Assembly: GCA_031258155.1 (NCBI GenBank)
Contig: JAIRNH010000008.1
Coordinates: 1-32,059, forward strand
Reading direction: 5' to 3'
Source of the DNA: Helicobacteraceae bacterium
GTDB taxonomy: Bacteria > Campylobacterota > Campylobacteria > Campylobacterales > SZUA-545
DNA length: 32,059 bases
A program made the position numbers and the translations under genes. The stretch's first letter is position 1. Each line of letters starts with the position of its first letter. The notes under the pieces are model-generated. The model did not search any database. It was given only the letters and a program-made list of their open reading frames with translations, and was not told the DNA's origin. This document shows, one piece after another, positions 29,224 through 32,059 of the stretch.

Positions 29224-31089
29224 TTATATCGCCTTAGCCAAGATTCTTGACAGACGCGCCCCAAACGCGGCGGGGTCCTTTAGCGTCATGCCGGCGATTA
29301 GTTGCGCTTGCTCAAAAATTAAGAAGCTAACGTCGCCAACTAGCGCCTCGTCCTCGATTGCGCCGATCTTTAGGACAATTTCGTGCGACGGGTTCAGTTC
29401 CAATATCGGTTTAATATCCGGCTCCGGTATATTGCCCATCGCTTTGAATATTTGCCGCATTTGAACGCTCGGATCGTTTTCGTCCAAAACTAAGCAGGCG
29501 GGCGATCCGCTTAATCTCGCGCTTATTTTGACCTCTTTTACCGCGTCGCCGAGCGCTTTCTTGACCTTTTGCGCGATCGGCTCGGCGGCTTTGATCGTCT
29601 CCTCGTCGCGCGTTTTGGGCAGATCGTCCTCCGCGCCCGACTTGTTGATTGCTTTAAGCGGCGTTCCCTTGTATTCGCTAATCTGCGACATAACAATCTC
29701 GTCGATCTCGTCGTCCATAATCAACACTTCCAGCCCTTCGGCTTTGAAGCTCTCTAAAAGCGGCGAGTTTCTAAGCAGCGATTCGCTTAACCCCGCGATA
29801 TAGTAGATCGCCTTCTGATCGGCTTTCATTCGCTCTTTATACTCCGAAAGAGCGCTTAAACCGTCGTCTTTGGTAGTTTTGAAGCGAACCAGCTCCAAAA
29901 GCTCGTCTCGATTGGCGTAATCGCTATACAGCCCCTCTTTGACGCACCGTCCAAACTCTTTATGGAATTCGGCGTATTTCTCTTTGTCCTCGCTTAGTTT
30001 TTTAATTTCGCTTAGAATCTTTTTGACCGACGCGCTTTTAATGTTGGCTAAAATTTTGTTTTGTTGCAAAATCTCTCGGCTGACGTTAAGCGGCAGATCT
30101 TCGCTGTCGATTACGCCGCGCACGAAACGCAGATATACGGGCAAAAGCTCTTTGTCGTCGTCGGTGATAAACACGCGCTTGACGTATAGCTTAACGCCCG
30201 ATCTGTAGTCCATTCTGTAGAGATCGAACGGCGCGTTTTTGGGGATAAAAAACAGCGTCGTATATTCCAGCGCGCCTTCGGCTTGCGTGTGGATTGTCGC
30301 TATAGTCTCGCCGCTGTCGTGGCTGATTGTTTTGTAAAACTCCAGATACTCCTCCGGTTTGATGGAGTTTTTCGGGCGTTTCCATAGCGCCGTCGCGCTT
30401 CCGATCTGCTCGTTTTTGGGCGTTTTGCCTTTTTCTTTGCCCTTGTCGTCGTATTCGGTTTGTTCGTATTCCAAGAAAATGGGAAAAGGAATATGATTGG
30501 AATATTTTTTGATCGCGCTTTCAAGCGTCCAGCGGTTGGCGAACTCTTTGCCGTCCTCTTTCAGATTTAGGCGGATCGTGGCGCCGAAACTTTCGCGCTC
30601 CGCCTCCTCGATCGCGTATTCGCCCTTGCCGTCGCTGGTCCATCTATACGCTTTATCCTCTCCAGCCTTTTTGGTCGTAACTTCGATTGTTTCCGCGACC
30701 ATAAACGCCGAGTAGAAACCCACGCCGAACTGCCCGATCAGATTGGAGTCTTTTTTGCGATCGCCCGTTAGTTTGGAGACGAAACTTTTTGCGCCGCTTT
30801 TGGCGATCGTGCCTAAATATTCTACTAAATCAGATTCGTTCATACCAATGCCGTTGTCGCTAATCTCCAGCCACTTGCGATCCGCCGCGTCGAAACGGAT
30901 TTGAATCTTTGGGTCGAAAGCGATCTCTTTGAAGCTATCGTCGCTAACCGTGAGAAACTTGAGCTTATCCAGCGCGTCGCTCGCGTTGCTAATTAACTCG
31001 CGCAGAAAAATCTCGCGGTTGGAATATAGCGAGTGAATCATCAGATCAAGCAGTTGATTGACCTCTGTTTGAAAGGCGTATTTTGACAT
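29224..31089 (-). CDS. htpG: molecular chaperone HtpG (Hsp90)
   Basis: 621 residues. The GHKL ATPase domain begins with NREIFLRELISNASDALDKL, then WLEISDNGIGMNESDLVEYL and GQFGVGFYSAFMVAE. The middle domain has LYVKRVFITDDDKELLPVYL, RFVRGVIDSEDLPLNVSREI, with the catalytic arginine helix, and the C-terminal dimer domain ends in ARLSRILAKAI. It is a cytoplasmic ATP-driven chaperone. GGGAG precedes the ATG. Upstream are a TATAAT box (minus strand, 31121-31126) and a CIRCE-like repeat at 31168-31194, pointing to heat-shock control. Confidence 0.97.
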   Translation of the reverse strand: MSKYAFQTEVNQLLDLMIHSLYSNREIFLRELISNASDALDKLKFLTVSDDSFKEIAFDPKIQIRFDAADRKWLEISDNGIGMNESDLVEYLGTIAKSGAKSFVSKLTGDRKKDSNLIGQFGVGFYSAFMVAETIEVTTKKAGEDKAYRWTSDGKGEYAIEEAERESFGATIRLNLKEDGKEFANRWTLESAIKKYSNHIPFPIFLEYEQTEYDDKGKEKGKTPKNEQIGSATALWKRPKNSIKPEEYLEFYKTISHDSGETIATIHTQAEGALEYTTLFFIPKNAPFDLYRMDYRSGVKLYVKRVFITDDDKELLPVYLRFVRGVIDSEDLPLNVSREILQQNKILANIKSASVKKILSEIKKLSEDKEKYAEFHKEFGRCVKEGLYSDYANRDELLELVRFKTTKDDGLSALSEYKERMKADQKAIYYIAGLSESLLRNSPLLESFKAEGLEVLIMDDEIDEIVMSQISEYKGTPLKAINKSGAEDDLPKTRDEETIKAAEPIAQKVKKALGDAVKEVKISARLSGSPACLVLDENDPSVQMRQIFKAMGNIPEPDIKPILELNPSHEIVLKIGAIEDEALVGDVSFLIFEQAQLIAGMTLKDPAAFGARLSRILAKAI

Positions 31090-31194: not shown

Positions 31195-31346
31195 TACAGC
31201 CCTTGCGGTTTGGGGGCGAACTTTACCAATCAAGATTAACGGGCGCGAAGCCGAACGCGCGATTGCGGCGATCGCTTGTTGAAAAACAAAGGGCAAAACT
31301 TTGGCGCTCCTTTGATATGCTTACAAAAAAACCCGAAGGAGCCAAA

Positions 31347-31868
31347 ATGCTACGCGGATTAGTCGCGTTTTGCGTCGCTTTCGCCGCGCTCTGCGCGCGA
31401 ACGCCCATTGATTTTACCACGCTTAAACAGAGTTTTATCCAGCGCGTTACGAACGAGCAAAACCAAACGATTACTTTTAGCGGCGCCGTTTGGCTAAAAC
31501 AGCCCAACTTGGTTAGATACGACTACGTAAAACCTCAAAAAAAGACGGTTACGGCTAGGGGCGATCGGATTTTGATCCTTGAACCCGATCTAGAGCAGGC
31601 GACGCGGTTTACAAGCGAGATCGCGCTTAATATCATCGATCTGTGGAGGCAAAGTTACGCGGTAGGCGAAGGCAAACGCGAAGCGATTATCAAAAATCAA
31701 AAGATCGCGATTGAACACGAAGGCGCGAACATAACAAAGGTTTACTATACGGACGATCTGGATAATTTTGTGGAGATTATGCTAAGCGATCCCGAGCGCG
31801 ACAAGCCGATCGACGACGGGTTTTTCACCCCCGCGATACCTAACGGCTGGGATATTATCTCTCAATAA
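31347..31868 (+). CDS. lolA: outer-membrane lipoprotein carrier protein LolA
   Basis: 173 residues from the ATG at 31347, which has AAGGAG six bases upstream. An open frame reaches back to 31203, but that part precedes the signal peptide and lacks a ribosome site. The signal is MLRGLVAFCVAFAALCA. The mature domain has FTTLKQSFIQRVTNEQNQTI, TFSGAVWLKQPNLVRYDYVK and a C-terminal ITKVYYTDDLDNFVEIMLSD, the LolA pattern. It ferries lipoproteins across the periplasm from LolCDE to the outer membrane. Its last 114 bases are repeated downstream. The gene copy ends TPAIPNGWDIISQ; the repeat lacks the IP codons. Confidence 0.92.
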   Translation: MLRGLVAFCVAFAALCARTPIDFTTLKQSFIQRVTNEQNQTITFSGAVWLKQPNLVRYDYVKPQKKTVTARGDRILILEPDLEQATRFTSEIALNIIDLWRQSYAVGEGKREAIIKNQKIAIEHEGANITKVYYTDDLDNFVEIMLSDPERDKPIDDGFFTPAIPNGWDIISQ

Positions 31869-31880
31869 GGTTTTGGCGAG

Positions 31881-32012
31881 TTGCGCGTCAGCGTTTATTA
31901 TGGCGATCTGGATAATTTTGTGGAGATTATGCTAAGCGATCCCGAGCGCGACAAGCCGATCGACGACGGGTTTTTCACCCCCGCGAACGGCTGGGATATT
32001 ATCTCTCAATAA
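31881..32012 (+). other. chimeric ORF: start of downstream gene fused in frame to lolA tail
   Basis: A TTG at 31881 opens a 43-codon frame reading MRVSVYYGDLDNFVEIMLSD and ending NGWDIISQ with TAA at 32010-32012. The first eight or nine residues are shared with the next start at 32025; the remainder is the lolA C terminus in the lolA frame. It is a by-product of the tandem duplication. Whether it is translated is unknown; the region AAGG(N)9 before the TTG is a weak ribosome site. Confidence 0.6.
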
Positions 32013-32024
32013 GGTTTTGACGAG

Positions 32025-32059
32025 TTGCGCGTCAGCGTTTATTACGGCGATCGGGATAA
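32025..32059 (+). CDS. probable 5' end of the next gene (cut by window)
   Basis: TTG at 32025 starts a frame MRVSVYYGDRD that runs to the window end. It shares its first residues with the chimeric ORF and then departs from the lolA sequence at GATCGG, so it probably represents the original gene start. Only eleven codons are visible, and no family can be named. Confidence 0.4.
   Translation, partial: MRVSVYYGDRD

Follow-up and report, generated by a model that had tools for sequence, protein, structure and literature searches.

A minisatellite-like tandem array of the lolA 3' end in a Helicobacteraceae draft genome

The contig analysed here ends inside a head-to-tail array of short repeats, which is very probably a lineage-specific, minisatellite-like tandem array with a unit of 144 bp, comprising at least four units and built from the tail of lolA together with its 3' flank. 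The window is the whole of contig C8 (G000:C8:1-32059; 32,059 bp), which belongs to a draft genome (1.94 Mb, 71 contigs), and its final genes are htpG and then lolA. The relevant features are the following.

29224-31089, minus strand: htpG
31336-31341, plus strand: SD sequence of lolA, AAGGAG
31347-31868, plus strand: lolA, intact, 173 aa, Pfam LolA (PF03548)
31754-31903, plus strand: repeat unit A, 150 bp, which is lolA's own 3' end and 3' flank
31837-31842, plus strand: hexamer TACCTA of unit A, in its ancestral state
31866-31868, plus strand: stop codon of lolA, TAA
31869-31904, plus strand: 36-nt linker from the lolA stop to the next unit, the former lolA 3' flank, in frame with the copied tail
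31881-32012, plus strand: 43-codon ORF opening with TTG, made of the rest of the linker and the copied LolA tail and closed by the copied lolA stop
31904-32047, plus strand: repeat unit B, 144 bp, the first derived copy, without the hexamer
32048-32059, plus strand: first bases of the third unit (CGATCGGGATAA), which the contig end truncates; the array resumes at G000:C29 (L003:1-269)
L003:340-363, on contig C29: strong hairpin with the look of an opposite-strand terminator

Repeat units and the lolA gene

Positions 31754-31836 and 31904-31986 are identical over 83 bases at a spacing of 150, and a second spacing of 144 links 74 bases at 96% identity. TRF places the array at 31748-32059 with a score of 540, the runner-up array in the 32-kb window scoring 67. 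Adjacent head-to-tail units of high identity (at least two) are therefore present, as in a tandem duplication or minisatellite array. The tandem duplication in units of 150 and 144 bases that a sequence-only reading of this DNA had described is borne out by these values, and so is its third unit at the window end, which begins at 32048; the sequence TACGGCGATCGGGATAA at 32043-32059 belongs to the opening of this repeat unit 3. Every extra unit is made up of the terminal ~115 bp of lolA, with the stop codon but shorter by 6 nt, and of ~36 bp of 3' flank. Translated in frame, the array reads ...WDIISQ*GF(G/D)ELRVSVYYGD(L/R)DNFVEIMLSDPERDKPIDDGFFTPANGWDIISQ*..., and within the linker lie a weak hairpin and a promoter-like TTGRCG-N17-TATTAT.

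The lolA gene is intact, with its own stop, and the C-terminus of its product is unaltered, since the copied tail follows the original stop and brings along a copy of that codon. The altered termini envisaged from the sequence alone are thus not seen in LolA. The ORF scores 59.7 bits against the Pfam LolA model (cut-off 23.6) and passes the curated threshold, and the protein has the same length of 173 aa in the congeners. The best-scoring Pfam stretch of the full protein stops before the duplicated tail. Unit A accordingly belongs to a complete gene for LolA, the outer-membrane lipoprotein carrier (PF03548), whereas each extra copy is limited to the ~38 C-terminal residues and has no family match.

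Relatives, polarity and origin of the array

Four congeners (G001, G003, G004 and G006), whose lolA DNA is 78-82% identical to that of G000, have a single lolA tail without a repeat, and their matches stop at or just past the lolA stop. The comparison with relatives for a single-copy state that had been proposed thus indicates a lineage-specific array. The repeat unit found no match in G002 and G005. We also considered a dispersed element; this was ruled out, as the unit occurs at two places in genome G000 and, beyond lolA itself, at none in 14 other genomes of the family.

The polarity of the array can be read from a hexamer that encodes residues I-P of PAIPNGW. Unit A and each of the four congeners keep the form ATACCN, which is missing from units B, D and E. 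By this comparison lolA's own unit is ancestral and the extra copies are derived, because the congeners and lolA's own copy keep ATACCN and the extra copies are without it. The array is also young on the scale of the genus, since the differences between units (~1-3%) are small beside those to the congeners (~20%), yet its units are no longer identical. The description of the duplication as fresh holds in part only: substitutions, together with a 6-nt deletion that the extra copies share, already set the units apart. Unit B is a mosaic, which opens with the CTG variant of unit A and leads into a unit with CGG as in the later units, a pattern consistent with unit-to-unit exchange once the first duplication had occurred.

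In the most likely course of events, a first illegitimate duplication would have joined the flank GTTTATTATGGCGA to lolA (GTTTACTATACGGACGA) at a short patchy similarity, and at the repeat junction this flank meets lolA at GATCTGGATAATTTT. One copy would then have lost 6 nt, and the array may have grown from that copy, the near-identical units allowing expansion via unequal recombination or replication slippage. The result would be a 3' passenger, probably neutral. At the parental sites the similarity is gapped (GTTTAyTAT..GG.CGA....G.TAATTTT) and reaches p about 0.12 against shuffled sequence; when the whole of lolA was searched with the flank, the best match fell elsewhere than at the breakpoint. 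Homology at the breakpoint was therefore rejected as the driver, the similarity being present but not significant. The earlier proposal of an origin at a short shared sequence stands insofar as the breakpoints lie at or near short similar sequences, but the true similarity of lolA and flank is gapped and weak. The 17 bases of near identity between lolA and a next gene, on which that proposal had been based, compare lolA with its own copy, the second sequence being a unit junction that contains copied lolA, and are partly circular. The weak similarity at the breakpoint does not fix the initiating mechanism; we infer that a few matching bases helped illegitimate recombination or slippage to start the array, with homologous unequal exchange afterwards.

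Continuation on contig C29 and alternative readings

The array is also found, in the same orientation, at base 1 of contig C29, and at no further site in the genome. One complete and one partial unit occupy C29:1-269, with a period of 144 (TRF score 524), ending TTATTATGGCGAGTAATTTTAGCG. The frame runs past the last unit into VYYGE and then a stop; beyond lie ~165 bp without a clear gene, followed by a convergent minus-strand ORF of 397 aa. This ORF has no Pfam match and, by eye, looks like an outer-membrane porin in its signal peptide and composition. No conserved neighbourhood of lolA and the downstream ORF was found in the congeners; in each one compared, the two lie on separate contigs. 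The simplest reading makes C8 and C29 neighbours, as the ends of both fall within an array that is the only one of its kind. The repeat could not be resolved, and so the assembly broke at this point. Taken together, the two ends give lolA's own tail and at least three 144-bp copies, that is, at least four units. If the cut unit of C8 is the first unit of C29, 10 bases are missing and the array consists of lolA's unit and three copies; otherwise there are more. The sample for the base rate of such arrays was limited to 20 other contig ends; a long-period array was seen at none of 19 contig starts, and the far end of C29 had none either.

It is conceivable that the repeated units do not lie in one molecule and reflect an assembly artefact or a mixture of strains. 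The genome is a draft, the records of the congeners carry MAG titles and k119 contig names, and the contig breaks within the array, where the ends of C8 and C29 overlap by just 14 exact bases. We nevertheless regard this explanation as quite unlikely, as the novel junction of flank and lolA is found in both contigs and within contigs, and the units carry unit-specific variants in addition to their common 6-nt deletion.

A still smaller probability is assigned to an array under selection, which would either be translated, by reinitiation downstream of the lolA stop, into 43-aa LolA-tail peptides or act as a promoter, variable in copy number and antisense to the convergent gene. The 43-codon ORF at 31881-32012, which we found where the sequence-only reading had placed it, is kept in every unit, with TAA and TTG 12 nt apart, and TTGACG-N17-TATTAT (10 of 12 positions) recurs in each derived unit. 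However, the array is absent from all relatives searched. The recurrent motif is one consensus match that has been copied, and the frame is largely expected by descent: it is mostly open as inherited, and the rest needs only an in-phase, stop-free 36-nt linker, which is not unlikely. The TTG lacks a good SD, the best candidate being AAGG 10 nt upstream, compared with AAGGAG at lolA. The 43-codon copies have no Pfam match and hence are not scored as LolA. An RNA element was likewise rejected, as unit and linker fold no better than shuffles (z 0.5 to -1.0). Of the four differences among derived units within the 43-codon ORF, three are synonymous, against 21-33% expected; this is a slight, non-significant hint of coding constraint, with too few differences to decide. 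The 43-codon ORF is thus probably not a gene, and the array is probably neutral, with no function indicated.

Hardly any weight can be given to the two-gene chimera of the sequence-only reading, in which unequal exchange fused the start of the next gene to the lolA tail: the linker, in frame with the copied tail, does give a 43-codon ORF, but on C29 the array continues and only intergenic flank and the opposite-strand ORF follow, so that the array is followed by no same-strand gene whose start could have been copied, the supposed next gene (TACGGCGATCGGGATAA) is the third repeat unit, and the ORF is made of the lolA tail and an untranslated 3' flank with no second gene supplying its 5' part.

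Other repeats of the genome and comparison with known arrays

Repeats of another kind were observed elsewhere in genome G000, which contains 16 (AG/CT)n tracts with nine or more units (up to 19); such tracts are present in all seven genomes of the genus. Sites include L049:455-488, L058:101-138, L089:655-688, L095, L091, L101 and L053 (contigs C10, C19, C3, C36, C18, C59 and C14, respectively). Five tracts have related leaders with a strong SD (MQFARFGSILNPLSKVKKRFLSLSL...), and three of the five run, in another frame, into a lipobox (VISLTFLILLAGC), LLAGC. Several tracts sit in the signal peptide of paralogous lipoprotein-like genes, most of which read OFF as assembled, and these genes are likely a phase-variable lipoprotein family. 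The layout resembles the CT-repeat switch of Helicobacter pylori oipA as outlined in PMC10564699. CT tracts near other ORF starts (L100:486-535; L092, reverse strand 512-545) mark further candidates for phase variation, one reading into FATPKERSEISKHYRPDIDGLRA (acyltransferase-like by eye) and one preceding a 187-aa frame. The ends of G000:C18 (30057) and G000:C45 (31153) lie inside a CT/AG tract, and the sequence beside the tract of C45 matches the continuation beside the tract at the start of C19; paralogous tracts may have caused assembly breaks or misjoins. Contig C5 starts with a 77-base C-rich near-homopolymer (L045:1-77; 84% match), which may be a poly-C tract or an artefact of the assembly end.

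The lolA array resembles minisatellite or VNTR-type arrays at gene 3' ends in its few head-to-tail units of ~0.15 kb, their small differences, the mosaic pattern and the absence from sister species. It differs from them in that the unit is mostly the tail of a known gene, and it is seen here in one genome of the species. Partial (3'-end) tandem gene duplication by illegitimate recombination is alike in its breakpoints in gene and flank, its short patchy similarity and its single-copy relatives; unlike such a duplication, the array has at least four units and not two. Literature searches, which covered tandem duplication, partial gene duplication and termite-gut MAGs, yielded nothing specific to this locus.

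The array is thus an ordinary repeat, in which no gene birth is shown. It calls for caution with contigs that end in a repeat, where the next unit can pass for the next gene, and it offers a polarised example in which the 3' end of a gene has been multiplied and the gene itself left untouched.
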